From the NCBI GenBank assembly GCA_017610265.1, contig JAFCCH010000005.1, positions 1 through 32,383 of the forward strand: a stretch of DNA of 32,383 bases, given 5' to 3'. Below the pieces are notes generated by a model. The model searched no databases and was not told the DNA's origin. It worked only from the letters and a program-made list of their open reading frames with translations. A program made the position numbers and the translations under genes. The DNA is from Nitrososphaerota archaeon. Its GTDB lineage: Archaea; Iainarchaeota; Iainarchaeia; Iainarchaeales; GCA-2688035. This document shows, piece by piece, positions 9,327 through 31,967 of the stretch (position 1 is the stretch's first letter; each line of letters opens with the position of its first letter).

Positions 9327-9336
9327 AGGTCCCCAC

Positions 9337-10530: not shown

Positions 10531-10568
10531 ATAAATCGCCTGCTCGCTCAACTGAGCTCACTCGTTTC

Positions 10569-10575: not shown

Positions 10576-10642
10576 CTTATCACTTCGGAGAATTTAAATC
10601 TTCGCACCGCGCGTTGTGACTGGTCCAGAGTCAGGGCTCGGC

Positions 10643-10650
10643 TTTAAATT
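10643..10650 (+). promoter_or_regulatory. TATA box for coaE-coaD
   Basis: TTTAAATT centred about 28 bases before the coaE ATG at 10675. There is no Shine-Dalgarno sequence, so the transcript is probably leaderless. Confidence 0.55.
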
Positions 10651-10674
10651 AACTTTTTACCTATTCTTTTTTGA

Positions 10675-11244: not shown

Positions 11245-11728
11245 AAGAATTGTAATTTATCCTGGAACATTTGATCCTGTTACTCTTGGGCACTTGGATG
11301 TCATCAAAAGGGCTTTGCAGCTTTTTGACAGGGTTGTTGTTGCAGTTGCCACAAAGTCCGGGAAGAACCCATTGTTTTCCCGGAATGAAAGGGTTTCTAT
11401 GATTAAGGTTTGCACAAAAGATTTGAAGAATGTCGATGTTGAAAGCTTTTCAGGCCTGCTTGTTGATTATGTAAAAAAGAAAGATTCCTTTGTTGTCATA
11501 AGGGGCCTTCGTGAATTATCGGACTTTGAATCAGAGTTCCAGCAGGCTACTGTTAACAGGAAATTAAATCCTGACTTTGAAACGGTTTTTGTTGTTACAA
11601 GTCCCAAATTCTTTCACTTGAACAGTACTGTTGTCAAGGAAATTGCTTCAATGCATGGCAATGTCAAGTGCTTTGTTCCTGCTTTTGTTGAACTTGCCTT
11701 GAAAAAAAAGTTTGCTAAAAGGGCTTAA
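11237..11728 (+). CDS. coaD: Phosphopantetheine adenylyltransferase, bacterial CoaD type
   Basis: Joins 4'-phosphopantetheine to AMP from ATP, giving dephospho-CoA, the substrate of the gene just upstream. The 163 residues match bacterial CoaD in length and motifs: YPGTFDPVTLGHLDVI with the (T/H)xGH nucleotide site, RGLRELSDFESEFQQATVNRKL, and the ISSTxVRE-like motif here read LNSTVVKEIASMHG, followed by VPAFVELALKKKF. The archaeal counterpart is normally a different, distantly related protein, so both final CoA enzymes here are of bacterial type. The start overlaps the last codons of coaE. A weak hairpin AAGGC/GCCTT follows the stop at 11729-11744. Confidence 0.93.
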   Translation: MAERIVIYPGTFDPVTLGHLDVIKRALQLFDRVVVAVATKSGKNPLFSRNERVSMIKVCTKDLKNVDVESFSGLLVDYVKKKDSFVVIRGLRELSDFESEFQQATVNRKLNPDFETVFVVTSPKFFHLNSTVVKEIASMHGNVKCFVPAFVELALKKKFAKRA

Positions 11729-11773
11729 AAGGCTGTTTTGCCTTAGGAAAGCTTTTTAAAGGAGAAATACATC

Positions 11774-11781
11774 TTATATAC
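11774..11781 (+). promoter_or_regulatory. Candidate pilin TATA box with nearby inverted repeat
   Basis: TTATATAC predicts transcription from about 11803. TTTTTAAA at 11754-11760 is an alternative. GTCCCT (11793-11798) and AGGGAC (11818-11823) form a perfect six-base inverted repeat around the likely start site, which could be an operator or, with the upstream box, a leader hairpin. Confidence 0.4.
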
Positions 11782-11863
11782 GAATAAATCTGGTCCCTTC
11801 CTGGATAAATTTTTGGCAGGGACTGAAATTGGTTTTTAAAAAAAAAATTATAGGAGGGAAAGC

Positions 11864-12316
11864 ATGAACAATAAAGGACAAGCAGCATTGGAGTATTTGA
11901 TGACTTATGGATGGGCATTGATTGTAATTGCAATTGTTGTCGGTGTATTGGTTTTCATTGTATCAAGCCCTGCAGGAGTTGTTTGTAACAGCAGCGACCC
12001 GGCAAAAATTGTTGTAAAGGCTTCAAATCTTGAAGCAAATGTTGCTACTGGAACAGATATGGGTAAGATAATTCTTACTAATCTGACAGGTGGAGATATT
12101 TCATCAGTTTATATCTCATCTTCAGGCGCAATTGCTACAACAGACCAGGCTTATAATGCTAGTGTTTCAAGCGGTGACACAATTGAAGTCACAGCAACAT
12201 CTGCGGCTGTAGAGACCTATTCTACAAGTAATTTGATGGTCGGATACACAGATTTTGCTGCACTTGACAGAAACGTCACCATTACTTGCAGCGGTCCAAT
12301 AACTGTAACAACTTAA
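11864..12316 (+). CDS. Major type IV pilin-like protein with class III signal peptide
   Basis: A 150-residue archaeal pilin. MNNKGQAALEYLMTYGW is a classic class III prepilin signal: the leader is MNNKG, cleavage comes before Gln6, and Glu10 is the conserved +5 acid, followed by a hydrophobic helix to about residue 33 that would form the filament core. The rest is a Ser/Thr-rich beta-type domain with two Cys (41 and near 144) and several N-glycosylation sequons (NSS, NLT, NAS, NVT). The ribosome site GGAGG, six bases before the ATG, is one of the strongest in the window, and the gene is monocistronic with a strong terminator, both fitting a highly expressed structural subunit of the machine encoded convergently downstream. 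Confidence 0.9.
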   Translation: MNNKGQAALEYLMTYGWALIVIAIVVGVLVFIVSSPAGVVCNSSDPAKIVVKASNLEANVATGTDMGKIILTNLTGGDISSVYISSSGAIATTDQAYNASVSSGDTIEVTATSAAVETYSTSNLMVGYTDFAALDRNVTITCSGPITVTT

Positions 12317-12515: not shown

Positions 12516-13532
12516 CTACATCATTCCTGATATTCCTCCAAGGGCGCCGCCCAGGAAAAATCTTATGGCTGAAAACAGGAGGACGGAAATAATTACCACT
12601 ATCGGAATATAGTGAATCCCCTCTTTTTCGCTTCCAGACGCCATTGCTCCAATTGTAAGTGATGCAAAGATAGCGGTAACCGTCAATGCCACCACAGAAT
12701 AAGTTACAATAAATGATTCGGTTATGTTAACAGTTGGCAGGCCCATAAACCTTCCAACACTGCTCATTGAGCTGTATTCATCCATTTGTTCAGGGGAAAT
12801 GCTTATGCTGCTTGTTTGCTCTACAAGGATTCCAACAATGATGCTACTAATTCCAAATAGCAGTGGTGCTCCAATAATAGCTGCCGCAAATATCAGAATT
12901 ACGTACATACTGATGTTTGCCGAAATTTCGTCCTTCATTGCGTTTTCTTCTCTTAAATCTGAGCCAAGCTGTATCAATAGGTCGGCGATTGCTCCACCAC
13001 TCTTAATGCCCTGAACCAAAAGCCACATACTTCTTGCGAGAACTTTGCTTTTTATCTCCCTGCTCATAATCATAAGTGCGTTCTCCATTCTTTCGCCTGA
13101 AATTATTTCTTTGCTCGCATTCTTTAGTTCCTCTGACACAACACCGAATTCCGGCCTGGCTGCTGCAAACAATGCTCTTTCTGTTGTAAGCCCTGACTTT
13201 ATGTTGCTTGCAATCAATTCAAGAACATCTGGTAAAATCCGTTCCGCTTTCTTTCCTTCTTTCTCAGCGGTCTGGCTTAACATAAAATAGGTTCCACCCG
13301 CAAATGCGCTAAATACTCCTATAAACACGGCTAGTATTCCTAAAATTGAATTAATTTTAAAGAAAAGGAACAGGTTTACAGAAATTGCTATTGCTATTCC
13401 GATGCCAAACAATATGATAAATCCAACAAACCTTTCTTCTTCAACATCTATTCCAACATATCTTAGCTCCCGCTCAAAAGCCGTAAGGACAGGTTGCGGA
13501 ACCAATGATGCAATTCTGTGATATATCCCCAT
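12516..13532 (-). CDS. TadC/ArlJ-like pilus assembly platform protein (T2SF domain)
   Basis: A 338-residue polytopic membrane protein. An N-terminal pair of helices (about residues 38-60 and 65-85) is followed by a cytosolic T2SF domain (PDVLELIASNIKSGLTTERALFAAARPEFG and later LVQGIKSGGAIADLL), then further helices (about 205-235, 275-295, 310-330). T2SF proteins form the inner-membrane platform on which the ATPase turns to build the pilus. Start choice: ATG at 13532 has AGGGTG six bases upstream; a GTG at 13541 lies inside that site and would overlap the previous gene. It is the last gene of the assembly operon and follows a second, longer T2SF protein by five bases. Confidence 0.88.
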   Translation of the reverse strand: MGIYHRIASLVPQPVLTAFERELRYVGIDVEEERFVGFIILFGIGIAIAISVNLFLFFKINSILGILAVFIGVFSAFAGGTYFMLSQTAEKEGKKAERILPDVLELIASNIKSGLTTERALFAAARPEFGVVSEELKNASKEIISGERMENALMIMSREIKSKVLARSMWLLVQGIKSGGAIADLLIQLGSDLREENAMKDEISANISMYVILIFAAAIIGAPLLFGISSIIVGILVEQTSSISISPEQMDEYSSMSSVGRFMGLPTVNITESFIVTYSVVALTVTAIFASLTIGAMASGSEKEGIHYIPIVVIISVLLFSAIRFFLGGALGGISGMM

Positions 13533-13537
13533 TTTTT

Positions 13538-14791
13538 TCACCCTATAATATTTGGTCTCCTGCTTTTAATTATGCCAATGTACATAAATTGCATTACAGA
13601 AACCATTGCCAACAGCCCCCAGAAAATCAAGTGGGTTGGCTCAAGCCTTGTAACTTCAACTTGCTGCTGTCCAAAAAAGTTTAGTCCAATATTTTTTATT
13701 AACAGGCTTTCACCAAACAATGTTGTGCCCTCTGAGGTAACAAAGTATTCCCGCAGGTTGCTTTCGGCTCCGTAAACAGACTGTGTGTCAACTATTTTGC
13801 CTTCTGAACCAGGTTCCCGTTCCGCTACCAGGGAGAAAACGCCCCGTTTGCCGTCTATTTTGTCAACTCTTACAAAAAGCTCTGTGCCTGAGTACCGTGC
13901 TTTTCCTCCAAGGCCTGCAATATAGTCTCCTTCGTAATAAACTTCACCTGGCAAAACACCTTGCAATGTTCCGCCCACATCGTTCAATAATGGCATGCTT
14001 GAAATAGCGTCGCCTACCATTGGAAAAGTGAACAAGATTATCAAAAGTGTTACGCCAAGGGCCGGCATTATTACTCCAATCATCATATACATCAGGGAAA
14101 GAACTCTTAGCTGTGAGCCATATTTGGTTATTGCAAGCTTTTGCTCCCTTATCATTGACCTGACTGTTTCTCCAAGAATGTCGCTTATGTCTCCGCCTGC
14201 ATTCATTCCATTTACAATCTGCCAAATGGATTTTCTCAAATAAGGGCTTGGATTCTTTTCACTCATTTCCTCCAAAGCGATTTGCTCTGGTGTCCCTGTA
14301 TTTATTGCGTCAATGGCTTTTTGAAATTCTTCTCCAACAACGCCATACTGGCCTCTTGAAACCATTGTCATACTGTCAAAAAGGGAAACACCACTTTTTA
14401 ATTGAACAAGAATTGCCCTCATTGCAAACACAAGATTTTTTTCAATGTTCTTAACTCTTGTTCTCACAATTAGTGTGGGATACATTATCATCTGCACAAA
14501 TATCATTACAGCCATAAAAATGCTTATTCCTACTCCCATTACCAAAAAGTCTTCAGTCATCCTGCTTAGCACAAGGGTTGCAAGCCCTCCGACAAATATG
14601 CCGTAGAATCCCACTAAAAAAAGCATTAGGGCGCCGTATTCTTTCTCGTCAAATCCTAATTCAGCCTGGTCAAGAGACTTTTTAAGGTTTGGAAACACTT
14701 TGTCAAAGTTTGTAGTAAATCTCATCAAAGGGGCGGTCATTGTCCTAAGAATAGGCAGGGGTACTGGTGCAAATGGAATTATTTTTGCCAT
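13538..14791 (-). CDS. TadB/ArlJ-like pilus assembly platform protein with large external loop
   Basis: A 417-residue membrane protein with helices near residues 54-76, 83-105, 230-257 and 387-407. The T2SF region lies at about 118-220 (VFAMRAILVQLKSGVSLFDSM and IVNGMNAGGDISDIL). Unlike typical members it has about 130 residues (258-386) between the last two helices, with beta-rich, non-hydrophobic sequence such as ELFVRVDKIDGKRGVFSLV; with the T2SF domain inside the cell, the loop is expected outside. It stands four bases after the ATPase gene with GGAG eight bases before its ATG, and should form a heteromeric platform with the next protein. Two platform proteins are also known in euryarchaeal Epd-type pili. 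Confidence 0.87.
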   Translation of the reverse strand: MAKIIPFAPVPLPILRTMTAPLMRFTTNFDKVFPNLKKSLDQAELGFDEKEYGALMLFLVGFYGIFVGGLATLVLSRMTEDFLVMGVGISIFMAVMIFVQMIMYPTLIVRTRVKNIEKNLVFAMRAILVQLKSGVSLFDSMTMVSRGQYGVVGEEFQKAIDAINTGTPEQIALEEMSEKNPSPYLRKSIWQIVNGMNAGGDISDILGETVRSMIREQKLAITKYGSQLRVLSLMYMMIGVIMPALGVTLLIILFTFPMVGDAISSMPLLNDVGGTLQGVLPGEVYYEGDYIAGLGGKARYSGTELFVRVDKIDGKRGVFSLVAEREPGSEGKIVDTQSVYGAESNLREYFVTSEGTTLFGESLLIKNIGLNFFGQQQVEVTRLEPTHLIFWGLLAMVSVMQFMYIGIIKSRRPNIIG

Positions 14792-14795
14792 AATC

Positions 14796-16385
14796 TTAAC
14801 TCCTTGTTACTGTTGAACTTGGCTTTTTTTGCGCTGTATCTGCTATCAATACTGGTTTTTGGTTTTTTGCAATCATCTGCAAAACTGTGTCCTGATCCCT
14901 ATAGAATCGGGCAATTATTTTTCCAACATCTCTTACATCCCTAACATTGAATTTTATAAGCCATTCAATTACCTTTTTCTTCTTTTCAAGCTCGTTTTGG
15001 ATTTCGCTCCTGCTAAATCCTGTGTGCAATGATAATTCGTCAAACATTCTAATGCTTTCACTGTGTTTTACTATCTTGTCGTCGCTTCCTCTCCATCTGT
15101 AAAGAATATTTGCTTTAACCTCTTCTTTTCCGCCTCTTCTTTCCGGAACATATTCTGCAACCTGAAGTATTCTTCTCACTCCAAGCCTTCTGTTTCTAAA
15201 CATTACAATATTTAAGTGGACAGATTCCAGCATTGTTGGAGGAATGTTTACCGGTGGATTAATGAACCGTCTAATTGTTTCATCGGCAGTGTTTGCGTGG
15301 AATGTTGTGTATACTGAGTGTCCTGTGTGCATTGCTTCAAACATTACTTCTGCTTCCTTTTGACGCCTTATCTCTCCAACAATTATTCTGTCAGGCCTCA
15401 TCCTCAAACTGTTTACCAATAGGTCAAGCATTGAAACCCCCCCTTTCCCCTCTGGATTTGGCTCTCTTGTGGTTAGAGGGACCCAGTGTAGGAATGGTGG
15501 AAGCATTAGCTCTCTTGTGTCCTCAATTGTTAGAATTCTGTGGTTTGGCTGGATAAATGGCATGCAAACATTCAGGAAACTGGTCTTTCCAGAACCTGTT
15601 CCCCCTGAAACAATCATGTTCATTTCATATTCCATTGTTGTCCAGATAAGAGCCATTACTTCGGTGTTTGCAGTCTTGCTGTTGATAAAGTCGGTTACTG
15701 TCCAGGGCTCTCTTCTAAATTTCCTGATTGTAATAGTGTTTCCTGCACTTGAGATTGGGAAAAGCGTTGCATTTGCCCTGTCTCCTGTTATAAGATGTGC
15801 ATCAAGTAAGGGGCTAAGAATAGTTATTTGTTTTCCAATCCTTCTTGCAATTATGTTACTGTAATTTTCTGTTTCTGATTCATCCTTCATTTGCACGTTT
15901 GAAAGAAGCCATCCATACTTTTTGTGATAAACCCAGACAGGGGTTTTACTTGTGTTTACAACAATTTCTTCCAGGTTTGGGTCTGTCAACAAGAACTCTA
16001 TTTTTCCAAGCCCCAACATTTCATTTAACAGGATTGCAATCAGAAGCATTTTTGTTTCTTCAGGAATGCCTGGCTCGGCTTCCAATAACTTGATTGCCTT
16101 TTCTTTGAATCTTTGCTTTGTTCTTGCAACAAACTTTGCTCCAATTTGCCTTTCTGACCTGATTGAGATGTCGCTTAAAATGCTTGTCCTAAGATTGTTC
16201 AGTAATGCAACAGTTCCTGGGCCATAAGATGGAAAATTTAGAAAATATCTTCTTACATAGGCCTGGTCATCGTCAATTATGTTTACTTCTATTTGCACCT
16301 TGTCTGATTCAACCCTGTAGGTGTCAACAACCTTCATCTTTTCAATATCTTCTTTATTCATTGCCGGAGCTTGTTCTTCTGCCAT
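14796..16385 (-). CDS. TadA/VirB11-type pilus assembly ATPase
   Basis: A 529-residue cytosolic secretion ATPase that powers pilin assembly. Visible motifs: Walker A GGTGSGKTS (261-269), the Asp box ILTIEDTREL (284-293), Walker B RIIVGEIR (333-340) and the His box GHSVYTTFHANT (355-366). The N-terminal domain (about 1-225) includes IRKFRREPWTV just before the ATPase core. Length is within the usual range for the archaeal GspE/ArlI group. It begins 15 bases after the scaffold gene and is followed at four bases by the first platform gene, the standard ATPase-platform order in archaeal type IV systems. The C-terminal 100 residues are helical and may contact the scaffold protein. Confidence 0.95.
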   Translation of the reverse strand: MAEEQAPAMNKEDIEKMKVVDTYRVESDKVQIEVNIIDDDQAYVRRYFLNFPSYGPGTVALLNNLRTSILSDISIRSERQIGAKFVARTKQRFKEKAIKLLEAEPGIPEETKMLLIAILLNEMLGLGKIEFLLTDPNLEEIVVNTSKTPVWVYHKKYGWLLSNVQMKDESETENYSNIIARRIGKQITILSPLLDAHLITGDRANATLFPISSAGNTITIRKFRREPWTVTDFINSKTANTEVMALIWTTMEYEMNMIVSGGTGSGKTSFLNVCMPFIQPNHRILTIEDTRELMLPPFLHWVPLTTREPNPEGKGGVSMLDLLVNSLRMRPDRIIVGEIRRQKEAEVMFEAMHTGHSVYTTFHANTADETIRRFINPPVNIPPTMLESVHLNIVMFRNRRLGVRRILQVAEYVPERRGGKEEVKANILYRWRGSDDKIVKHSESIRMFDELSLHTGFSRSEIQNELEKKKKVIEWLIKFNVRDVRDVGKIIARFYRDQDTVLQMIAKNQKPVLIADTAQKKPSSTVTRS

Positions 16386-19294: not shown

Positions 19295-21436
19295 TTAAGG
19301 GCAGGACTCATATTCAATGCTGTAACTGCCTTGCTTGTTTAGAATAGTCTGGTTTGAAGCCAGGGCTGTAAAATTTACCCACCCCTCAATGGTTAAGTCT
19401 TTCATACCGTCAAGGTCTGTGGCATCTCCTACTGTGAGGAATTTGCCTGTTCCGTCAAACTGGTTTGATCCATCAATTTTTCCTGTAGTTGCTTCGCTTC
19501 CGGCAAAGCCTGTTGTGCTTGCATTGTTTGCTTTTGAGGTTGAGTCAAATCTCAAACCTGTTCCTTGTTCCTCTAAATGCTGAACCATTTGGAAAGAACT
19601 GTCCCAGACGCCAGTCACGTCTTGTTGGTTGCCTGCTGTCGCGTTTCCATAATATAAGAATATTGAGGTGTTAGCACTTCCATAAAGGCTTGTTTTTACC
19701 CATGCATCAAGTGCGCCTGTTGCATTGTTATATGTTTCAATTTCGTGGCTTAATGGAGTGGTACCGTCTCCTGATGTAAACATTATATCGTCTCCATCCG
19801 CCTGAACCTTTCCGCCTCCACTAATTAAGTCGGCGTCAATAACACTTATCAATACCGGAAAGTTTGTGAGGTTTGCTTCAACCAATGAACTGCCAATAAT
19901 TATTTTTTTCCTAAAGGTCCATCCAACAGGCCATTCAATATCACAGTCTGTATCAGCCGGGGCAGAACAGCTTGCAGGGCAGCATCCATCGCCTGGAGTG
20001 CACGCTGAAATTGTGTTCCATTCGCATACATTTGGAGCAGGCCCTGTATTGCATATAATATTTGTCTTGCAAGGGTCTGCATCATAAATTGTTTCACATT
20101 GGGAATTGTTGGTGCATTCGTCCGCTTCCGGACAATCTAAATCTCCTCCTACAAATGTGCATCCTGCAGGGCAACATCCGTCTGACCCATCATCGCACAG
20201 ATTTGGCGGGTAAGTGCAAACAATTGCGTTGCAAATATTTTGTGTGCAGGAATCACTGTCGTCACAATCTTCATTTATGGAACATCCTACTCCGACTCCT
20301 GGCGGATTCATTATTTGGAAATTGCACCCTGCTTCGGATGTGGCTCTGCATATGTCAAAGCCTGGTTTTTTTACGCCAAAGTCAAATGTTCCTGGCGGCA
20401 GTGAAACTTCATCTATCTCTTCCTTAAATGTTATTCTTGTTTTGAACGAGGAGTCAAGTGGTTCAGGTGGATTAACAGCATCCATTTGTTGTGCTCGTAG
20501 TTCAACGCTTAGTGTTTCAGTATTTGCTCCGTCCGGATTTATTAGGAATCCAACCCAGTTTTGCTTGGAAACAGTTTCTCCTGAATAATCTGTCTGAACC
20601 CATATTTTTCCGGTTGTTGTTGAATCAAAGTTCATTCCCACGGTCCATTGCCCGTTTACAAACGGTGCTGAATTGCAGTTTTCTCCGCTACAGTTGTCCC
20701 AAACAAATGTAACTTCTGCATAGGGGTCTATTCCATTTGGTGCTTCGTTGTTGCAATTGCTTGAACCGGTTCCGCCTCCTGCATCATAAACTCCTTCGCA
20801 CCATATCTCAAAACCGTTTTTAACGTGGATTTCTGTTTCCACTGTGTTAATTTTGTCAAAGGAGAAATCTGAGACACAGTCGTCTCCTAGGGCTGTGCCT
20901 TTGTTGAATTTTGCCTTGTCGTCAAGTATATCATTTATATTAATAGTTTCTGTTCCTTTGGCGACTGAGAATCGCATGCATTGGGGTAGTGTGATGTAAT
21001 TTATTTCAGGGTAGTCTCCTGCGCCTCCGCCCCATGCTCTATTTTGTATGCTGTGTTCTACGTCGACTTGTACTCCGCTTCCGCTGTTTTGTTTTGCGAA
21101 TATTGCGAATAGGTTCATTGTGTCGAATGCGTCGTTAAACCTGATCTCCTTTAGTGGCAGGTTTTGTTCTATTTCGAACCAGTTGCTTCCTGAGCTGAAG
21201 CCGTTGAATGGTGTTATTCTTCCGTATGTTGTGCCTGCGTATCCTTCTTTTGCTACGATCATTTGTTGTCTTAGGTTGTTGAATCTGTCGTTTACTTCGT
21301 TGAATGCAGTTTCTTCGATGATGTTTCTTTGTTGTTTTATTTCTGATCTGCTTATTGAGAAGTTTAGTGCGAGCAGTGTGCTAATTAGCAGAAATGCCAT
21401 GAAGGTTATGAATATTCCTTTTTTGTTCAGTTTCAT
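19295..21436 (-). CDS. Type c pilin-like protein with Cys-rich, DUF2341 and truncated LamG domains
   Basis: A 713-residue secreted protein. KKGIFITFMAFLLISTLLALN (residues 5-25) is a pilin-like leader and membrane helix, but no acidic residue follows the Gly. Residues 30-360 align end to end with the 336-residue type c paralogue (shared NNL, AWGG/RWGG, LPQC, RITF motifs). Added after it: two Cys-rich units (385-436 and 441-498, each ending in DGCCPAxC and D.DC), a DUF2341 domain (503-600, WTFRKKIII to SIFLYYGNAT), and the first part of a LamG-like jelly roll (615-710) that stops early. Many N-glycosylation sequons. Probably a surface adhesin at or near a pilus tip. AAGGT lies a few bases before the ATG. 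Its first 400 bases use codons differently from the rest. Confidence 0.85.
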   Translation of the reverse strand: MKLNKKGIFITFMAFLLISTLLALNFSISRSEIKQQRNIIEETAFNEVNDRFNNLRQQMIVAKEGYAGTTYGRITPFNGFSSGSNWFEIEQNLPLKEIRFNDAFDTMNLFAIFAKQNSGSGVQVDVEHSIQNRAWGGGAGDYPEINYITLPQCMRFSVAKGTETININDILDDKAKFNKGTALGDDCVSDFSFDKINTVETEIHVKNGFEIWCEGVYDAGGGTGSSNCNNEAPNGIDPYAEVTFVWDNCSGENCNSAPFVNGQWTVGMNFDSTTTGKIWVQTDYSGETVSKQNWVGFLINPDGANTETLSVELRAQQMDAVNPPEPLDSSFKTRITFKEEIDEVSLPPGTFDFGVKKPGFDICRATSEAGCNFQIMNPPGVGVGCSINEDCDDSDSCTQNICNAIVCTYPPNLCDDGSDGCCPAGCTFVGGDLDCPEADECTNNSQCETIYDADPCKTNIICNTGPAPNVCEWNTISACTPGDGCCPASCSAPADTDCDIEWPVGWTFRKKIIIGSSLVEANLTNFPVLISVIDADLISGGGKVQADGDDIMFTSGDGTTPLSHEIETYNNATGALDAWVKTSLYGSANTSIFLYYGNATAGNQQDVTGVWDSSFQMVQHLEEQGTGLRFDSTSKANNASTTGFAGSEATTGKIDGSNQFDGTGKFLTVGDATDLDGMKDLTIEGWVNFTALASNQTILNKQGSYSIEYESCP

Positions 21437-21530
21437 CTAATTACCTTATATGTAATAATCTATCACATTTATGAATATTCCTTTTTTGTTCAGTTTTATC
21501 TAATTGCCCCATATATAATAATCTATTACA
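21406..21530. repeat. Degenerate 62-bp tandem duplication at a gene junction
   Basis: 21406-21467 and 21469-21530 match at 56 of 62 positions, offset by 63. Each copy holds the end of the type b reading frame and the first codons of type c. In the copy at 21469-21530 the type c start codon has become ATA; in the other the type b tail contains a stop (VIDYYI then TAA). So each gene now uses only one copy. Confidence 0.88.
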
Positions 21531-24500
21531 TAAAACCTGTCTGCTGATTCAGACAGGCAGTTCATTATTGCTTGGTTATGCAGACTGCACTCGCCCACTT
21601 TTTGGTCGTTGTTTATTATTGCAATGACTGTTCCTGTGCAATCAGGAGGGTCCCCGGGGCAGTCGTTGAATTCAACATCTTCGACCCTTATCTTCCAATA
21701 GCTTGGCTGTGTACACACTCCCTCTTTCCAACTGCAAATTTCGCCTGGGCTTGGAGGATTTGGCATTCCAATAAACAAAATTCCGTCGTCAATGGCAATT
21801 TCTAAAGGTATTGGGCTGTCATCATCTTCTCCAATAAATGCGGTTGCAGAAGCTGCACTTGCCCTTAATTTTTGGTCAAAGTCTTTTTTGTAAAATGTAA
21901 CTGACAAAGGCTTTATTCCTGCAACTTCTGAAATGCTCACATCCTTAAAGCCATTGTTGTCTATCTCAAAGTTAACACTTAGATTTTCCGGGCCGCCAAT
22001 GGTGTTTCCTCCTGTAAATACAATGTTTAAGTCAGCGTATTTGAAGGGAAAGGTCTTGTGGCATCTTGTGTCCTCTGTGTCACACAAAATCTTTTCATCA
22101 AAGCTTCCGTCCCAGTTTACAGTGTCCAAAGTACTGTTGTCTGTGAATGTTGTTCCAAATGGCGGGAATGTAATTTCGTTAATCTCACAGTTTTCTCCGG
22201 TGCATGGTACTGGAATTTCTATTACTGCTGACCACCACTGGCCTGAAATAACATTTATTGCCTGGTCTTCAAATGTTAATATACTTGTTGTGGGATCCCA
22301 TTTAACAAAATCAGCTGGATTTGGGGCGGTAGAACATCCCGCAGTGCTGACAAAACCACCTGTTTCTGCCCAAGTGCCGCAGTCTGTTACATTTGGCGAA
22401 ATTCCTGAGGTGAACGGCAGTTCTATATTGACACTGCCCATTTCTTTTGCAATTTTTGATGCAATAAATTGGTATAATTGGTCTAATTCTGCTTGGTCTT
22501 CTGCAAAGTAATATTTTCCGCAGTTTACTCCGTCATCGCAGAATTCACTGTCCTCATCTTTTGCAACCTCTTCAAGAACTGTTTCATAACTTATTCCACC
22601 AGACCCTCCTACCCCGCTTTCAAGTGCGGCGCTGTCGGCAAATCCAATCACATAAATTTTTATATCCTGAAAATCCCTTGCTGTTTCGGCTTCTGCAATT
22701 GCATCCTGGGCCGCAGCCCATTCGCCACAGGCAGATCCATTAATGCAGATATTTGCCTTTCCGTCTGTCAACAAAACAATAAACTTTCCTGTGTCTTCGG
22801 CAACGCCTATTAATTCCTCTGCCGTTTTTTTAATTCCAAGTGCTAATCCTGTTGCCCCTGTTGGTTCAAGGACATTTAATGAGCTTTTTATTGCTTCTCT
22901 GTTGTCTGTAAGGCTTTGGTTTGCGTTTCCACTGTCAGAAAAGCTTACCAATCCAATTTTGTCAAGTGTTTGCCATTGGGCGTTGTCAATAAAGTCCCGC
23001 ATTGCCTTTTTAGCTGCGTCAATCCTTCTTAGATTCCAGCTTACTGTAAAGCTAGTAGGCTCCTCTGCCCATCCCTCAAGTTCGTATGGAGCTGCATTTA
23101 AGTTTGAGCCTCCGTTTGTAATTGTCCTTTCACAGTAGCCATCTTGACAGTAATATGCTGTCAAGTAGCTGGTTTCGAGAGGTGTGCTATTGCCCCCATT
23201 TGTCCTTACTCTAAACGCAGGGCTTCTATGACTTTGTGCTATAAAGTTTGCTTCTGAGCATGTGCCTAAATCTCCTGAATTGCTTACCTTTACCTTGAGT
23301 CCTTTGACATTGTCTCCTGAATTTATATTAAAAACATCCAGGTCTCCTGTTCCAAATGCCTCTTCGTCATTCCAGTTTGTTTTTGTAGGACAATTTGTTT
23401 CCACAGTAGTTGTACAGGCCACCCCGTTGCAGCCATTGCTTGAATTGTCAAGGGCTTTGTTTGGAATTGCTTTGTATCCTCCTCCATCTCCAATGGTATT
23501 GTCTACAACATAGTATGAAAAACTTACAGTTGAAAGGCTTATTTCATCATCACTCCATGCCCAAACCTCATAGTTTCCGCTTGGCTGGTCGCCTGTGCTG
23601 TAATATTTGTTTCTCTCACAAGCAGTGCTCCCAGTGCATGTTGCTATAGAAGAGACATCTGTTCCATCAGATTTCTTAAAGTAAAGCCTTGGCCTGCATC
23701 CACTAAGACTTGAATCATAGGTGCTACCATAGTACATATATCCATAAACATATTGGAATGTTTGGCCTGGTTCAAGTGTTGGTAGGTCCAAATCCCCAAT
23801 CTTTTTCCAGCCCCCTGTTGGAACACATTCGCTTCCGCTTCCTGTTGCTGTTCCTCCTGAAAGGGTATCAAGCTTATTGTTTACATTCAAATATCCTCGA
23901 AATCGCATGTAAACACTTGAAGTATATGGTGTGTTTGTCCATCCGTAAAGGTCCCATTCCTTATCTCCTGTATTGTGGCTTCCGTTTATTACTCCTTTAG
24001 TTGGATAAACATAATGCTGTGAATAATTTGTTGAGTCATACCTAAAATATTCTGTTCCGTCGGGTGCAACAAGCTTCAGTCTTGAAATTATTCTGCAGCT
24101 TCCTCCGTCATCTCTTGTGCCTGACCACCACATATATAATCGTTCACCCCATGTTCCAACAAACCTGTCAATAAAGTCGGCGTCTGCGGTAAAACTCCAT
24201 AAATGTGTCCAGTTTGTAAACTGGTTTTCGGTTGCCGCACTGTAACTTGTTGGGCAGTTGTTTGTTGTTACTATGCAGTCGCCTCCGTCGCAGGTGCTTC
24301 CGTTAACTGTTCCACTTGTTTCCTGGGCAAGTGCATCATATTCTGCCATGCTTCCGCTTATGTCCATGGCTAACATTATTGCAATTGGATCCCTTGACTG
24401 GTTTCTTGCCCTGATTGTAAGCTTTACTGTGTCGTCGCAGGAAATTTCACTTATTGCGCCGCCGCTAAGGTCTGTTACAGTTACATTTGTTTCAACATCT

Positions 24501-25144
24501 GCCTCCAGTTCCCCTTCAAATAAGGCCCTTAATGCCTGCTCTTCTTCTTCAAATTCAAATGTTTGTGGAACACAAACTGTTCCTCCTGTTTCCTCAATTA
24601 TAGGCTGTTTCATTGCAGCAATCTTTCGCCCGTGGGCAACCTCTTTTTCAGGAGAGGCTGATATGCCTGGATAACTTTCTTGTCCTGTTTCTTCATCAAA
24701 ACATTCATCAAAAACCGATTCAATAGTGTCATAAGTAGCTCCCGCGCCTAAAAAATCTGCGTATGCGGTTCTGCAGGCAGCCAAATTTTCTTTGGCTCGG
24801 TATTCTGTTATAACTATATTGAGTTCGGCGTTTGCAGGCAGTAATTTTTTGACCTCGTCATAAATGCCTGTTCCCTGGTTATTTGTCAAAGCTCTCTGGC
24901 TTAACTCGTTGTCGGCAAGGTTTTTTGCAAGAATGCCGCTGTTTTCCAAAACTGAAAAGCTATCGTTGGCAGCCTGCTTTAGGCTTGGGGCAAGCGGAGT
25001 CATGTCTGACTGGGGTGTTTGTATTCCTAACCCAATAAATGTCAGTACACCAATAGTTAGCATTGTTGCAAGCAGGGCGTCAACTGAAACAGCAAACCCT
25101 CTTTTACCTATCCCGATATAAAGTAAATTCTGCAATTGTTGCAA
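21500..25144 (-). CDS. Type b giant pilin-like vWA protein with split vWA domain
   Basis: 1214 residues. KRGFAVSVDALLATMLTIGVL (14-34) is a pilin-like signal and helix with Asp at +6. A region to about 250 resembles its paralogue. The von Willebrand A domain begins at 254 with IMLAMDISGSM (MIDAS Asp261, Ser263, Ser265) and resumes at 706 with RIDAAKKAMRDFID, then LVSFSD, GATGL (Thr765) and LLTDG (Asp794), so metal binding is intact. Between lie about 435 residues that look like three beta-sandwich units ending EWDLYGW, NYEVWAW and YELEGW. The C-terminal 300 residues are beta-rich with paired Cys. Surface adhesin is likely. TTG at 25144 abuts the AAGGAGG; TTG at 25135, nine bases after it, may be the true start. 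It overlaps the upstream gene by 41 bases. Confidence 0.88.
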   Translation of the reverse strand: MQQLQNLLYIGIGKRGFAVSVDALLATMLTIGVLTFIGLGIQTPQSDMTPLAPSLKQAANDSFSVLENSGILAKNLADNELSQRALTNNQGTGIYDEVKKLLPANAELNIVITEYRAKENLAACRTAYADFLGAGATYDTIESVFDECFDEETGQESYPGISASPEKEVAHGRKIAAMKQPIIEETGGTVCVPQTFEFEEEEQALRALFEGELEADVETNVTVTDLSGGAISEISCDDTVKLTIRARNQSRDPIAIMLAMDISGSMAEYDALAQETSGTVNGSTCDGGDCIVTTNNCPTSYSAATENQFTNWTHLWSFTADADFIDRFVGTWGERLYMWWSGTRDDGGSCRIISRLKLVAPDGTEYFRYDSTNYSQHYVYPTKGVINGSHNTGDKEWDLYGWTNTPYTSSVYMRFRGYLNVNNKLDTLSGGTATGSGSECVPTGGWKKIGDLDLPTLEPGQTFQYVYGYMYYGSTYDSSLSGCRPRLYFKKSDGTDVSSIATCTGSTACERNKYYSTGDQPSGNYEVWAWSDDEISLSTVSFSYYVVDNTIGDGGGYKAIPNKALDNSSNGCNGVACTTTVETNCPTKTNWNDEEAFGTGDLDVFNINSGDNVKGLKVKVSNSGDLGTCSEANFIAQSHRSPAFRVRTNGGNSTPLETSYLTAYYCQDGYCERTITNGGSNLNAAPYELEGWAEEPTSFTVSWNLRRIDAAKKAMRDFIDNAQWQTLDKIGLVSFSDSGNANQSLTDNREAIKSSLNVLEPTGATGLALGIKKTAEELIGVAEDTGKFIVLLTDGKANICINGSACGEWAAAQDAIAEAETARDFQDIKIYVIGFADSAALESGVGGSGGISYETVLEEVAKDEDSEFCDDGVNCGKYYFAEDQAELDQLYQFIASKIAKEMGSVNIELPFTSGISPNVTDCGTWAETGGFVSTAGCSTAPNPADFVKWDPTTSILTFEDQAINVISGQWWSAVIEIPVPCTGENCEINEITFPPFGTTFTDNSTLDTVNWDGSFDEKILCDTEDTRCHKTFPFKYADLNIVFTGGNTIGGPENLSVNFEIDNNGFKDVSISEVAGIKPLSVTFYKKDFDQKLRASAASATAFIGEDDDSPIPLEIAIDDGILFIGMPNPPSPGEICSWKEGVCTQPSYWKIRVEDVEFNDCPGDPPDCTGTVIAIINNDQKVGECSLHNQAIMNCLSESADRFYVIDYYIWGN

Positions 25145-26312
25145 CCTCCTTGAATGTTACTGGTCTTCTTACTGATACTTTCATTTTGTTGTCTCCGATT
25201 GGCTCTTCCCCTGACCAAAGAAGATCTCCTTTTTTATTTTTTACAATGGAGTCATCTTCAGGGTTTATTAGCCTAAAATAGTAGTCTGTTGATCCAATTA
25301 AAAGTTTCTGTCTGACAAATGCCTTGTCCCATTCCTGTAAAGCCCTTATTTCGCTCTGGTCAAGGGCTGTATCATAGATTCTTATCTCTTCCAGGTCTCC
25401 TGCAAATGGCCCTGCAGGGTCTGTTATCTTTTGGTTTTTGCCAATCCAGACCTTTTGTATACCAGGGTTGTAGGTTTCTCCAGGCTCTGTAAATTCATAT
25501 TCTGCCTTTAGGTCTCCGTCAAAATAGGTTTTCATCCACTGTGAATCCCATGTTCCAACAAGATGGTGCCATTGTCCGTCGGTAATGTCTGAGCCAGTAT
25601 AGCAGGTTTTTTTTTCTTCTACAGACGTAAAGACATGAAAGCATGCTTCACTTGAGCTTGCGCTCAAATGCCATCCTCTCAATCCTACAGTTCCACGCCT
25701 GCTTACAAGAGTTTGTGCAGCAATGTTTCCAGTCTTAAACCATACTGAAACAGTTCCTGTATGTTGGTAACCTAAAACAAGCTGCGCGCTTGTTTCATTG
25801 TCGTTGAAGCCAAAGTCAAAACCTGACTGTTCGTCAACTTCAAGGTATGCTGCTCCGTTAAATGTTCTTCCCTGTGTTTTCCATAAACCATCAACATAGT
25901 TTCCGCCTCCCACAAGAAATGCTGCATTATTGTAGTTTCCGCTTCCGTCTTCTGTTGAACTGTTAAAATGCCATTCTCCCATAAGATTGTCAGTTAGCCG
26001 CCCGGAACGCCAGATAAACTGGCTTGTTTTTTCCTCGTTTAGGACCCTGTCCCTTTTGCTTAATCCGATTGAGTTAACATCTAGCTGGCCTGCCTTTTCC
26101 CAGTTTGATGGCGAGCCAGAACTTTTTATTAACGTGTCCAAAGACTTTTCGGCCATTATTCTCATTTCCTGTTCCAACAGCCTTTTTTCCGCTTCAATAG
26201 TCTTGTTTGTCCAAATCCAGGTAATGCCTCCTCCAAGTAATAGGAATATCAGAACGGCTGCCATTAGGTCTACCATCATGCTTTGGCCTTTTTCGTTTGG
26301 CTTACTCAACAA
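25104..26312 (-). CDS. Type a pilin-like protein carrying a LamG domain
   Basis: 402 residues. NEKGQSMMVDLMAAVLIFLLLGGGI (6-30) is a class III-like prepilin signal with Gln at +1 and Asp at +6. Residues 50-100 (LDTLIKSSGSPSNWEKAG, IGLSKRDRVL) and 330-402 (LLIGSTDYYFRL, FKEVATIAEFTLY) match the shorter type a protein at the right edge of the window. Between them is a complete LamG/concanavalin-like jelly roll (105-325: GEWHFNSSTEDGSGNYNN, TVSVWFKTG, DGQWHHLVGTWD, FAGDLEEIRIYDTAL), a sugar- or protein-binding fold. The start is TTG at 26312 without a clear ribosome site, overlapping the previous stop by 11 bases, which suggests coupled translation. Confidence 0.88.
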   Translation of the reverse strand: MLSKPNEKGQSMMVDLMAAVLIFLLLGGGITWIWTNKTIEAEKRLLEQEMRIMAEKSLDTLIKSSGSPSNWEKAGQLDVNSIGLSKRDRVLNEEKTSQFIWRSGRLTDNLMGEWHFNSSTEDGSGNYNNAAFLVGGGNYVDGLWKTQGRTFNGAAYLEVDEQSGFDFGFNDNETSAQLVLGYQHTGTVSVWFKTGNIAAQTLVSRRGTVGLRGWHLSASSSEACFHVFTSVEEKKTCYTGSDITDGQWHHLVGTWDSQWMKTYFDGDLKAEYEFTEPGETYNPGIQKVWIGKNQKITDPAGPFAGDLEEIRIYDTALDQSEIRALQEWDKAFVRQKLLIGSTDYYFRLINPEDDSIVKNKKGDLLWSGEEPIGDNKMKVSVRRPVTFKEVATIAEFTLYRDR

Positions 26313-26734: not shown

Positions 26735-27235
26735 TTACACCTTTTCAAGCATTATTTTTTTCTTGTCAGCGGTCCAGCTTACTCTTACAACATATCCGCT
26801 TCCACTGTACTTGTTGAGGGCCCCGTTCATTAATGCCATTTCCCCGAGGTTTTCCCAAATTTTTGCTTTTGTTTCCCTGAGCATCTGGTTTTCTCCACTT
26901 AGCAAATTAACATTTATTGAAATTGCGCTGAACGAAACATTGTCGTCATAGTCTCCGCCGCATTCTGTTAAAGTCCCCTGGTTTGCAGCGTCACCTAAGA
27001 GGTTGACGCATTTGTGCACTATCTTTAATTCTTTCATCTCATTTGGAAATGAAATAGTTACAAATCTTGTGTTTCCTTCTCCGCTTGTGTAAACATCGTC
27101 CACCGCATTGGCAATTCTTGCGATTGCTTCATTTGCCTGTGCAACTCTTATGTTTTGGTTGTAGTTTATGAACGAAAAAGTGAAGATTATTGCAACAGAA
27201 ATAAGTATGAATGCTGTTAGCACAAGATATTCCAT
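26735..27235 (-). CDS. Small pilin-like protein, leader apparently missing (type d)
   Basis: 166 residues starting MEYLVLTAFILISVAIIFTFSF, which matches the mature start of archaeal pilins (xxLEYLVL) but without a basic leader. Upstream in frame is GLFYA, reading back to a stop with no standard start codon, so the gene either lacks a leader or uses an unusual start such as ATT. The rest is a small domain with two Cys (VHKCVNLL, LTECGGD). It overlaps the end of the type c gene by 19 bases and has no ribosome site, so translation is likely coupled. Minor pilin by context. Confidence 0.75.
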   Translation of the reverse strand: MEYLVLTAFILISVAIIFTFSFINYNQNIRVAQANEAIARIANAVDDVYTSGEGNTRFVTISFPNEMKELKIVHKCVNLLGDAANQGTLTECGGDYDDNVSFSAISINVNLLSGENQMLRETKAKIWENLGEMALMNGALNKYSGSGYVVRVSWTADKKKIMLEKV

Positions 27236-28227
27236 TGCGTAAAATAAACCAATTCTGGCTTTTGGTCAAATGTAATGTTTAGGTCTACATAGATCGGTGT
27301 TGTTGGCAGAGTATTTGAAATAACTATTGGAAACAGGTCTCCAACCTTTTCACACCCAATTTTTATCTTGAATTCATCGCTTGCATTCGCCGGAATTATC
27401 AAAGTGTCCTCTGTGCCAACAAGGGTGTAGGCTGGGTCGAAATGGGCTGTCCTTACTGCGATTCCTGGCTGGGCTTCATTCCTTGTAATATGGCAGCCTG
27501 CACCTGGGCATTGTGGATTAATTTCATTTATTGTGATTCTTACATAGGGTAATGTGTTTAGCGGGTCAAAGGCGTCAGTGCTGCTTGCAAGCGTTCCTTG
27601 TAGCGGAGGCGTTTGATCAATATAGGCTGTTGTGTTAACAGTAATATTTATGTCAACTATATTCAGGTCTGCGTAGTCAAATCCTCCACTGCATCCAAAT
27701 TCTGAATCAGCAAGTTCCCTCAAAATCATCATATTCAGGTCTGGGCAACATGCGTTTATGTCATACAAAAGGCATTGGGGCAGAATGGCATAATTGAGGT
27801 CTGCAAAGTCTTCTACTCCTCCCCATCTACTGTCCTGTATTGCGTTTGTTGCAATATTTAAGTCTGCAGTGGCATTTTTGTCTGCAAAAATGCTGTAAAT
27901 GTTTAATGCGTCAACATAAGCTGTTAGCATTGAAGTTTTTACAGGAATGCGCTGGCTTAGGATGACTGCATTTTCGTTAAAGTCATATTGAAACGGCATC
28001 GGCCTTTGCTGCACGTCTTTTGCAGGTCCTTCTTTGTTCAATGAAACAACCTCTTCGTAGAGATTGTTGAACGAATTGTTTACCTTGTTGAACGCAACTT
28101 CGTCAATGTACTTCCTTTCCTGTTTGTAGTTTGTTGTTTCAGCTACATCATGTAATGTAAGGATGCTTACAACAAGGAGAAAAACCATAAATGTTATAAA
28201 TACTCCTTTTGAATTCACTTTTCCCAC
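27217..28227 (-). CDS. Type c pilin-like protein, short paralogue
   Basis: 336 residues with SKGVFITFMVFLLVVSILTLHDVAE (6-30) as signal and membrane helix, lacking the acidic residue normally found at +5. It aligns with the N-terminal half of the 713-residue protein: FNKVNNSFNNLYEEV, RWGG, LPQCLLYDI and a closing VDLNITFDQ strand, after which it stops. Several N-glycosylation sequons and paired Cys indicate an exported, beta-rich domain. Its GTG start lies within the last codons of the type b gene (11-base overlap); a second GTG at 28218 is possible. By analogy with GspK or PilX, which also lack the +5 Glu, it may occupy the pilus tip; this is inference. Confidence 0.82.
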   Translation of the reverse strand: MGKVNSKGVFITFMVFLLVVSILTLHDVAETTNYKQERKYIDEVAFNKVNNSFNNLYEEVVSLNKEGPAKDVQQRPMPFQYDFNENAVILSQRIPVKTSMLTAYVDALNIYSIFADKNATADLNIATNAIQDSRWGGVEDFADLNYAILPQCLLYDINACCPDLNMMILRELADSEFGCSGGFDYADLNIVDINITVNTTAYIDQTPPLQGTLASSTDAFDPLNTLPYVRITINEINPQCPGAGCHITRNEAQPGIAVRTAHFDPAYTLVGTEDTLIIPANASDEFKIKIGCEKVGDLFPIVISNTLPTTPIYVDLNITFDQKPELVYFTQWNILC

Positions 28228-31200
28228 GCCCAGTAATCAAGTGTGTAAATAAAGGTCTTTGGAATAGCGCAATTAACTGCCACGTAATTATTGTAAGAAC
28301 ATTCTGCAACATCCTGGTCTTTGTTTACCCAAATGCAGATATAGCCGCTGTTAGCAATATTTGTGCTTTTTTCAACGCTTGTGCTGAGTCCGTCTGCATT
28401 AGTTCCATAGGATGAATCCAAAACATCTGTGAAGTTTTCAAAGTCCACGTTTATAAGGGGATCTGCACACGCAGTCAGGAAACTGCTACCCTCATAAAAA
28501 TTTATTGTCGGGCTGATTGTTGCAAGGTCTATGTCAAGATAACCCTTGTTTGAAATCTTATATTTGAGGGCAGTATCACTTGTTCCAAAAAACTGGCCGC
28601 TTATAAATTCCAGTTCCAGGTCATTGAAGTAGAATTCTCCACCTGAACTATATTTCATCGGCCAGAAGAAGGCATCTTTAGGCTCTGTTTTTAAGGCATA
28701 GCCAACCTGCGTATTTTCCGGTGGAAAAAAAACATCAGTGCCGCCGATAAATTCTGTGTCACATCCAGGATAATTACATGGAATTATTACGTCAAAACTG
28801 CCGGTCCAGCCGTTTTTAATATTCAGGTCCTCATATGTCAAAACGCCCCCTGCCCAGCTTGCAGGGCTTGGATTAAAATTGCTTAATTGCAATCCACTTA
28901 ATCCATCAAATTGCATTGAAATGTCTGTTGCACTTTTGTCAGGCATTCTTCCTGCAAGTTGTGCAATTCTTTCGGCAATTATATTATAGACATCCAACAA
29001 TGCCTCAGGGTCTGTTATATGGTGGTAGGAACCGCAGTCACTGTCTCCAATGTCGGGGCAGTATGCGTCAAGTGCAATATTTTCCATCTGCACATCATCA
29101 ACGTCTCCTCCAAATCCAATACTAAAAATGTAAACTTCATTTGTTTTTGCTCTTGCGACCTGGGTATCAATAAAATCTTGCGTTCCAAAATCACTTTGCC
29201 CGTCTGCAAGAAGGATAATAAACTGCACTGCATCAGCCCTTCCATTGCCACTGTCCAATATTTCATCAAGCGCCTCGTCAAGGCCTAAATGCATTGGCGT
29301 TCCACCTTCTGAGAGGATTCCGTCAATGGCTGTGCTAATGGTTGCCTTGTTTGGAATATCAGCGTCTGCCAAAAAATGGTCCAAACTTGAATTGCCATTT
29401 CCATAGCTTACCACTCCAAGCTTGTCTTCAGGGCTTTCCCAATCTTCAAAGTTGACAAACTGTTTTGCGCTGTTTCTTGCAAAATTCATTTTTGTTCCAA
29501 AAATCCTGTCTGCGGTTATAAGACCATAGCTCGTGGCCATGTAAAAATAATTTGGCCCCAAATTGAATTTGTAAAAGTCGTAGGGTGAATAAAATGTTTC
29601 AAGAACTATTGCATTTGGCGGATCACTTGCGTCAACAACATGTATCCCGTCGGCCATTGCTCCCAATCCAATGTCTGCAATTGTGTAAACATTTGTGTCA
29701 TATATAGCCACGTCCTCGATTGTTTCTCCTCCATGTAGTGTTGTTGAAATGCTTGGGCTTGCCTTGTTTGATATATCTATTATCCTTAAGCCGCCGTCTT
29801 CGTCTGCAAGATAAGCATAGTTGTTGCTGTCAACAACAACACCTTGCGGATTTGTTGTTGCGACAAATCCTGTCATACTTGGGCTTGCCTTGTCTGAAAC
29901 ATCAACTATCCACAATCCTTCTGTGCCGTCACCGCCTGCCCTGTCTGCAATATAGGCATAGTCTCCTGAAACAACAACGTCTTCTGGCTCGTCAATTAAG
30001 CCAGAACCTGTGTCATAAAGATTGCTTAAAGTTGTCCAATTGTCTGGATTTGGATGTGACTTGTCTATTATGACAAGGCCTCCAACCATAAAATCATATT
30101 TGTATATCCTGAATCTGCCGTCCTCGTAACTGCTTTGGAAAGGAGGTTCAACAGCGGTGCAAACATCTGAAGTATTGCACCTGTAAATGGCACCACCTGT
30201 GTACTGGTCTGTGCTCCTTGCCCTGCTTCCAAGTCTGTAATAATCGCCTGTGTCAAGGTCTGTTGTGGTTAAGACAATGTAATATGTTTGTCCAATATTT
30301 ACGTCAACAGGCCATGGGAAATCAATAGTTTCCCATCTATAGCCATTGCTTCTCACGCTTGCCATTGGAAAGTCAACAAAGGTTCCGTTTAAATCAGGGC
30401 CGTCAATGCTTGCCCTTATATGGATAGTCAAATCCCCTACAGGATTTCCTCTCCTATAAAGATACAATCTTACTCCGTCAATCCTGTCAATGTCTGAAGT
30501 AAATGATTGGGAAATCCATTTCCTTGCTGAATCATATCCAATCATTTCATAATTGTTCCTGCTTCCAGTCATTGAGGCGCCGTAAACCTGTGTTGGTGTT
30601 GGATTCACTGTACCGGCAGCGGCAACATATATGTAGTCACCTTCAACAAAAAGGCTTCTTGCAGTTGTCATGCTTCCAACTGTCTGTTCCAATGCCATTG
30701 TTCCCTTGTTTAAGACAGTGACTCCTGTGTCGTCGTTTGCAACATAGACATATGTGTCGTCAACAAATAATCCACGTGCATCATCAATGCTTCTCCTTTG
30801 CCCTGTATAGCTTAATCCACCGTTGTCCTGATTTACATCCATTTTGTAGACATAATCTGTTGTTCCAACAAATGCATTGCCGCTTGCACTGTCAAAAAAG
30901 GTTGATCTTTCGGTTCCGGTTGCACTATATCTTCCCATCCAGCTCATGCTTCCGCTTCTGTCCATCGAAATCATTATGTCAACAGGATTCTTTCTTCCAC
31001 CGCTTTCGGCTGAAACAGTAAAACTGAAATTGCTTGTTTTGTCACATTCCATTGGCAAATTTGTCATGCTTGAATCAAAGAAAAAGCACGGGCCGCCAAT
31101 TATTGCAAGTGGGCTGTTTACGTCCTCACCCCAGCTTGTGCCATCAGAAACCCTGACTTTGCATTTAAAGCGGTTGCCGTCATTGTCAATTGTTATTGCT

Positions 31201-31967
31201 TGTGTTGCGGCAGTGTTTCCTGTGAAAGTCCAGCCGTCTCCCGAAGCTGCTTCCTCATCATACCTGTACCATTGATATTCTACTGCTGTTTCAGGATCGC
31301 TTTCTGCATCATAATATTCGTAACAGCATCGCATTGTGTCAGTTGTTTCAGGGCAGGGATTTCTTTCACTCGGGCAGCTTACTCCAATTGTAATATTTAC
31401 ATCCCTTGCCTCAGGCGGTTCTCCTGCAAAGGATGCCGAAAACCATTTGTCTTTTGCCGCAACTGCGCCTTCTATAGCACAGTCACCTGGCTCTTTTTTT
31501 ATAAAGATCTTTCTGCCGTGAAATATCTCCTTGTCTGTTGGAAGGTTTTCTCCTATTGTAAAGAACTCATTTGAATCGTTTGGAAAGCAGCTTTCATATG
31601 TTTGATCTGCCCTGCAGGTGCTTATTGGATCGTCGAGCGTTGATTCAAATTGCAGCATCTGAACTTTAAAGCCGATCGTGTTCGGCAAAAGGGCTTTGAG
31701 TTTTTCCTCAATAGGCGTTACGTTTCCGTCTTCAATGGCGCGCATTATTGTCCCTGTATTGTCCATTGCGGCAATAGCATCGTCAACAATTTGTGTTGAC
31801 TCAATGTTTGCCTGAGTTATTGGCATTTGCCCAATTGGCTGAACAGAGATAAATGTTATCATTGCAATAAACAACACCATTGCAAGCAAGGCGTCTATTG
31901 AAATCGCAACTCCTTTATCGTTGCTGGAAATAAAATGTGAACCTGGCAATTGCTTCTTCCCCCTCAT
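28215..31967 (-). CDS. Type b giant pilin-like vWA protein with nested beta-propeller
   Basis: 1250 residues. DKGVAISIDALLAMVLFIAMI (17-37) is a pilin-like signal with Asp at +6. An Ig-like unit lies at about 205-290. The vWA domain opens at 328 with IMISMDRSGSM (MIDAS Asp336, Ser338, Ser340) and resumes at 826 with NFARNSAKQFV, VVSYGNG, EGGTP (Thr890) and LLADG (Asp922). The roughly 480 residues between form about seven LVIVD-type propeller blades (for example GLWIVDVSDKASP and GLRIIDISNKASP). The third blade is itself interrupted by a beta-sandwich (about 460-620). A probable adhesin or calcium-dependent sensor at the pilus tip. ATG at 31967 lacks a ribosome site; TTG at 31949, nine bases after GAGGGGG, may be the true start. 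Overlaps the upstream gene by 53 bases. Confidence 0.9.
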   Translation of the reverse strand: MRGKKQLPGSHFISSNDKGVAISIDALLAMVLFIAMITFISVQPIGQMPITQANIESTQIVDDAIAAMDNTGTIMRAIEDGNVTPIEEKLKALLPNTIGFKVQMLQFESTLDDPISTCRADQTYESCFPNDSNEFFTIGENLPTDKEIFHGRKIFIKKEPGDCAIEGAVAAKDKWFSASFAGEPPEARDVNITIGVSCPSERNPCPETTDTMRCCYEYYDAESDPETAVEYQWYRYDEEAASGDGWTFTGNTAATQAITIDNDGNRFKCKVRVSDGTSWGEDVNSPLAIIGGPCFFFDSSMTNLPMECDKTSNFSFTVSAESGGRKNPVDIMISMDRSGSMSWMGRYSATGTERSTFFDSASGNAFVGTTDYVYKMDVNQDNGGLSYTGQRRSIDDARGLFVDDTYVYVANDDTGVTVLNKGTMALEQTVGSMTTARSLFVEGDYIYVAAAGTVNPTPTQVYGASMTGSRNNYEMIGYDSARKWISQSFTSDIDRIDGVRLYLYRRGNPVGDLTIHIRASIDGPDLNGTFVDFPMASVRSNGYRWETIDFPWPVDVNIGQTYYIVLTTTDLDTGDYYRLGSRARSTDQYTGGAIYRCNTSDVCTAVEPPFQSSYEDGRFRIYKYDFMVGGLVIIDKSHPNPDNWTTLSNLYDTGSGLIDEPEDVVVSGDYAYIADRAGGDGTEGLWIVDVSDKASPSMTGFVATTNPQGVVVDSNNYAYLADEDGGLRIIDISNKASPSISTTLHGGETIEDVAIYDTNVYTIADIGLGAMADGIHVVDASDPPNAIVLETFYSPYDFYKFNLGPNYFYMATSYGLITADRIFGTKMNFARNSAKQFVNFEDWESPEDKLGVVSYGNGNSSLDHFLADADIPNKATISTAIDGILSEGGTPMHLGLDEALDEILDSGNGRADAVQFIILLADGQSDFGTQDFIDTQVARAKTNEVYIFSIGFGGDVDDVQMENIALDAYCPDIGDSDCGSYHHITDPEALLDVYNIIAERIAQLAGRMPDKSATDISMQFDGLSGLQLSNFNPSPASWAGGVLTYEDLNIKNGWTGSFDVIIPCNYPGCDTEFIGGTDVFFPPENTQVGYALKTEPKDAFFWPMKYSSGGEFYFNDLELEFISGQFFGTSDTALKYKISNKGYLDIDLATISPTINFYEGSSFLTACADPLINVDFENFTDVLDSSYGTNADGLSTSVEKSTNIANSGYICIWVNKDQDVAECSYNNYVAVNCAIPKTFIYTLDYWAWEK

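Follow-up and report, generated by a model that had tools for sequence, protein, structure and literature searches.

The open reading frame of P1 encodes a prepilin-like surface protein whose vWA domain is split in two by a giant insert, and the same loop of its paralogue P2 holds an unrelated insert. Across the wider family the content of this loop has been exchanged repeatedly while the mount stayed constant, which is supported by a survey of homologues and by a tree built from the protein minus the insert. We consider it fairly probable (roughly 65%) that P1 and P2 are modular adhesins of pilin-like type, belonging to a Tad-like type IV pilus of archaea, probably situated at its tip and equipped with an exchangeable head. 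The window analyzed here (32,383 nucleotides) is one 32-kb contig from a 1.28-Mb genome, in which P1 and P2 are the sole Pfam VWA matches (E ≤ 0.001).

Split vWA domains in a pilus locus

The two genes and their parts are located in the window as follows:

21500–25144, minus strand: P1, a single open frame of 1214 aa; split-vWA, prepilin-like surface protein
24347–24385, minus strand: P1 vWA piece 1 (residues 254–266), strand β1 and DISGSM
23030–24346, minus strand: P1 insert in the β1/α1 loop (residues 267–705, 439 aa)
22442–23029, minus strand: P1 vWA piece 2 (residues 706–901), with the RRIDAAKK helix, the T of GATGL and the D of LLTDG
21503–22441, minus strand: P1 C-terminal region, conserved up to the final residues (ECSLHN...DYYIW)
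28215–31967, minus strand: P2, a paralogue of 1250 aa with an LVIVD propeller in the same loop
29496–30944, minus strand: P2 insert (residues 342–824), a propeller with a nested jelly-roll-like domain
30084–30605, minus strand: nested jelly-roll-like domain of P2 (residues 455–628), within the propeller

The vWA domain of P1 is broken directly after the metal-site motif DISGSM (residues 261–266) and is re-entered at RRIDAAKKAM, residue 706. The original prediction had put about 435 residues between DISGSM and this helix, close to the 439 aa measured from local alignment, by which the boundaries may be off by a few residues. In the intact protein the Pfam vWA match begins only at residue 706, from profile positions 15–19 onward. 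When the 25 residues preceding the insert were joined to the part following it, the VWA_2 score rose from 45.9 to 59.3 bits and that of Pfam VWA from 34.4 to 48.5 bits, with the match now starting at profile position 1–2. The two pieces thus form a complete vWA family match once joined, as had been proposed for residues 254–265 and 706 onward. All metal-site residues (DxSxS, T, and D) are present in P1, as DISGS (261–265), GATGL and LLTDG.

An AlphaFold2 model of P1 residues 236–915 placed β1 at 254–260 and the next vWA helix at 710–721, and the folds it matches best are those of vWA domains, including that of Streptococcus sanguinis PilB. The pLDDT of vWA and insert together is 62; the vWA part is confident and the insert lies at about 50–80, with stretches below 50. 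Since the model is only moderate, where the head sits relative to the vWA domain is uncertain. A tandem 63-nt duplication (90%) at positions 21406–21531 of the window runs from the end of P1 into the beginning of the pilin-like gene that follows.

P2 has DRSGSM at residue 336 and its vWA domain is broken between residue 341 and about residue 825, giving an insert of about 484 aa. Joining the pieces raised the vWA match from 54.9 to 70.9 bits, as in P1. A 49-nt stretch that is 78% alike in P1 (24347–24395) and P2 (30945–30993) codes for the first vWA piece and terminates precisely at the boundary of each insert. The expectation that P1 is interrupted where its paralogue carries the propeller was thereby borne out. 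The inserts of P1 and P2 cannot be aligned to one another (best BLASTP E 0.016 over 46 residues; profile-profile probability 0.2%), and their contents are unrelated, again as expected.

Both genes lie in a pilus locus with these further features:

25025–25102, minus strand: prepilin-like N-terminus of P1 (residues 15–40), RGFAVSVDA followed by a hydrophobic segment
27217–28227, minus strand: pilin-like protein, 336 aa, SKGVFITF
26735–27235, minus strand: minor-pilin-like protein, 166 aa
26302–26748, minus strand: minor-pilin-like protein, 148 aa, RKGQTSLE
25104–26312, minus strand: minor-pilin-like protein with an inserted LamG domain (residues 178–322)
19295–21436, minus strand: pilin-like protein with DUF2341, neighbor of P1
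16401–19145, minus strand: coiled-coil-rich protein, 914 aa, conserved in the locus
14796–16385, minus strand: type IV pilus/T2SS ATPase (T2SSE), E 1.7e-35
12516–14791, minus strand: two T2SSF (TadC-like) membrane proteins

The N-terminal stretches read KRG/FAVSVDALLA in P1 and DKG/VAISIDALLA in P2, each followed by a hydrophobic helix (hydropathy 2.19 at residues 23–41 of P1). By a strict pattern, the motif [KRN]GxxxSxD is found in about half of the homologues. The motif of P1 and P2 has an Asp at +6, not a Glu at +5, and the Pfam Class_IIIsignal model has no match in either protein. Downstream of P1 lie the coiled-coil protein, T2SSE and the two T2SSF proteins, with pilin-like genes upstream and in between. 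Most relatives share this arrangement of T2SSE, T2SSF and minor-pilin genes in conserved order, and prepilin-peptidase-family genes are present in the genome.

The 914-aa coiled-coil-rich protein has no Pfam match and adjoins the pilus ATPase in most relatives; by eye, its C-terminus resembles a winged helix. The LamG domain of the 25104–26312 protein is absent from its relatives in L065, L068 and L071, all of the same genus. Judged from sequence comparison, this protein appears to represent another swap site within the operon of P1 and P2.

Domain R and the loop in homologues

The insert of P1 consists of three copies of a β-sandwich domain of ∼120–140 aa, here called R:

23894–24310, minus strand: R copy 1 (residues 279–417), profile E 2.8e-20
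23465–23869, minus strand: R copy 2 (residues 426–560), single-domain AlphaFold2 model, all-β
23033–23431, minus strand: R copy 3 (residues 572–704), abutting the vWA re-entry, profile E 4.4e-22

The motifs EWDLYGW (396), NYEVWAW (524), and YELEGW (687) each lie near the end of one repeat. In the self-comparison of the insert by direct Smith-Waterman alignment only R1/R3 stand out (z 4.7, 0/300 shuffles), while a profile search seeded with each repeat recovers the other two at E < 1e-17. The thirds of the insert are thus three copies of one domain, which agrees with the predicted three or so sandwich-like repeats. Across 24 R copies only two residues are invariant, a cysteine in the center and the terminal-motif tryptophan (YGW/WAW/EGW). 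A single copy is predicted to be all-β (AlphaFold2, pLDDT 82.7, pTM 0.75).

A Pfam search of the P1 insert gave no match, and searches of R against the PDB gave nothing below E 0.66 by sequence and no match at E ≤ 0.001 by fold. All R matches in 143 genomes fall within members of this split-vWA protein family, confined to the loop described here, and R appears to be a previously undescribed domain. Jelly-roll and sandwich folds, among them the ColH collagen-binding and EclA sugar-binding domains, resemble R weakly, and R was not assigned to them. No relation of R to the P2 jelly roll, the propeller or the whole P2 insert was found.

Homologues were collected from 143 relatives and from 87 genomes of the phylum (Diapherotrites-like DPANN archaea), 47 of which have a match. 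A single-sequence search of the genome contigs with the P1 protein gave no match; relatives were found with an alignment of the C-terminal part. Loop content was scored in 42 complete proteins, each with its two flanks in a single reading frame. The genomes surveyed are incomplete, contig ends truncate several of the proteins, and sampling of other phyla is thin. R is the only content in 15 of these proteins, with one copy (e.g., L082, L084–L086, and L107) to five copies (L068), and five more have R with the lectin-like LamG (730–1110 aa). A propeller fills the loop in 11 (288–304 aa); it has a nested jelly roll in another eight (437–511 aa where measured) and both a jelly roll and LamG in two (899 and 929 aa). 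The remaining protein, L115, has no insert. The loop therefore does not hold a single fixed domain.

The inserts of the homologues start at the same point and reach at most 1110 aa. In the search of the phylum, vWA matches of the split family re-enter at model column about 26–30 (join point 28), and other vWA proteins in the same genomes match unbroken, e.g., over columns 11–189. In the complete inserts of L064, L065, and L072 and the partial ones of L066 and L102, LamG is nested within a copy of R, each time at roughly the same loop of that domain; the partial insert of L066 also has a PA14-like match below the Pfam cut-off.

Three further observations concern this loop or its modules. A second family of proteins of about 1000 aa, encoded in these same genomes, has a vWA domain that is unbroken at this loop (G022:C97:4925-5482, G029:C1:196880-197431, and others). 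In L081 (ORF 7160–11032, minus strand) the P2-type jelly roll occurs twice (residues 420–555 and 822–956), one copy lying in the propeller insert and the other in another loop of the vWA domain. L099 (ORF 8810–12127, plus strand), from another archaeal phylum, is a pilus-locus vWA protein with a 115-aa insert at the same loop (residues 86–200); this could be a distant R domain, although the match is borderline (profile probability 18%, E 0.0014).

Exchange of inserts and its interpretation

With the insert left out, the maximum-likelihood tree of the protein requires at least four switches between R and propeller (4–6 in the bootstraps), with two long branches (L079 and L083) being uncertain. 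A single division into R and propeller types is rejected (p-AU 1.7e-36). The survey and the tree together bear out the idea of the loop as a site for exchangeable modules. Within the P1 clade the inserts are uniformly R-based, so variation there is in R copy number and in added LamG or PA14-like domains. True fold swaps are found across the wider family and are clearest in L069, from the genus of the window. This protein falls inside the supported clade of P2 (100/100), has the P2 gene order around it and flanks about 47% and 35% identical to those of P2, yet its loop holds one R domain instead of a propeller, and its metal site is degraded. As for how inserts were switched, mobile or repeat-driven switching was considered and not adopted: no insert-flanking repeats are found in the window and the insert is similar to its surroundings in G+C content.

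The same data bear on whether any exchange took place. Two ancient paralogue families, each with a fixed insert and later loss or decay, would explain why the P1 clade is all R-based and the P2 clade all propeller except for L069. This is very hard to reconcile with the position and gene order of L069, with the mixture of R and propeller types among single-locus homologues elsewhere in the order, and with the rejection of a single clade by a tree of at least four changes. What the proteins do is a separate matter. In the modular adhesin reading, the prepilin-type N-terminus would place P1 and P2 in or on the filament, and the vWA domain would act as a rigid mount whose β1/α1 loop, next to the metal site, carries a binding head. 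This head would be replaced, multiplied or interrupted by other modules over evolution on a constant mount, so that one pilus design could address different targets (glycans, partner-microbe surfaces, and minerals). Tip location, adhesion and ligands are putative here. Because the inserts include LamG, PA14-like and propeller domains, they may bind ligands, and the head rather than the metal site would probably be the main binding surface.

The adhesive site might instead be the vWA metal site, with the inserts serving as lids or arms to regulate its accessibility, a role proposed for the arms of RrgA and PilB. Most members retain DxSxS, T, and D, so the metal site may indeed be the main binding site, which counts against the head; the inserts also leave the domain beside this site, and the vWA domain of PilB binds host proteins (PMC8179133). 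Inserts of up to 1110 aa with complete lectin-like, propeller and sandwich domains nevertheless far exceed arms, and the degraded sites of L069 and L115 indicate that the metal site can be dispensed with, which leaves this explanation rather unlikely. We regard it as more improbable still that the protein, although encoded with the pilus genes, is a membrane anchor of the TadG kind or belongs to the cell surface (S-layer-associated), with inserts as spacers or cell-cell contact domains. The single N-terminal hydrophobic segment would also fit an anchor, and an archaeal pilus census discusses vWA-bearing TadG as a hypothesized anchor of bacterial pili (PMC4858521). Against it, the recurrent KGxxxSxDA motif resembles prepilin cleavage sites, the neighboring genes are pilin-like, and spacers have no need of lectin-like and propeller folds.

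If P1 and P2 are modular pilin-like adhesins, the family shows a route by which new binding specificities can arise on a single pilus design. Partner and surface recognition is largely obscure in the tiny DPANN archaea, for which the family provides defined candidate pilus adhesins. A constant mount, naturally varied heads and the new domain R together provide naturally occurring head swaps that can be tested, and the vWA loop is a natural insertion point for protein engineering.

Comparison with known systems

The available portion of the archaeal pilus census lists DUF2341 proteins as large putative tip adhesins in type IV pilus loci; it describes no split vWA domain, and its vWA entries are ArnB-type regulators (PMC4858521). 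The pilus-tip protein PilY1/PilC1 combines a vWA domain with a β-propeller in many members, as does P2. It is, however, not a pilin, and its propeller is C-terminal (IPR008707) rather than within the vWA domain; the PilC-type propeller domain has no Pfam match in P1 or P2. RrgA, GBS104 and Mfa5 share with P1 a vWA domain with insertions, in their case arms, and are found at the pilus or fimbrial tip. The arms of the RrgA/GBS104 type are located within strand C and between β4 and α4 (PMC7835359), unlike the P1 insert between β1 (254–260) and the helix at 710–721, and the assembly systems are unrelated. PilB of S. sanguinis, a bimodular pilin in which a pilin part is joined to a vWA domain with a metal site (PMC8179133; PDB 7b7p), is matched by P1 both by sequence profile (E 9.8e-5) and by fold, but has only small arms around its metal site and no giant insert.

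The closest known protein to P1 is CpaL, a minor pilin of the Caulobacter crescentus Tad pilus with a pilin-like N-terminus that is predicted to be at the pilus tip (PMC12607857). It has one vWA domain with a metal site, in two segments (148–203 and 384–626) with β-rich domains (204–383) between them (PMC12607857). Compared by description, the two proteins are alike in a vWA domain split by one or more β-rich domains and may also be alike in a pilin-like N-terminus, which is putative in P1. CpaL differs in being bacterial and in having an insert of about 180 aa whose content is fixed as far as described; this starts about 39 residues after DxTxS, compared with directly after DISGSM in P1. The split-vWA kind of pilin is thus already known, and the setting of P1 and P2 in a type IV pilus locus gives their likely function. 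More tentatively, the vWA β1/α1 loop could be an ancient and general grafting port of archaeal and bacterial Tad-type tips, CpaL included, a possibility that we consider somewhat doubtful. As the head emerges from the vWA domain at the metal site itself, any load on a bound head would pass straight there, and with such a general port a single mount could be used to sense force by a variety of heads.
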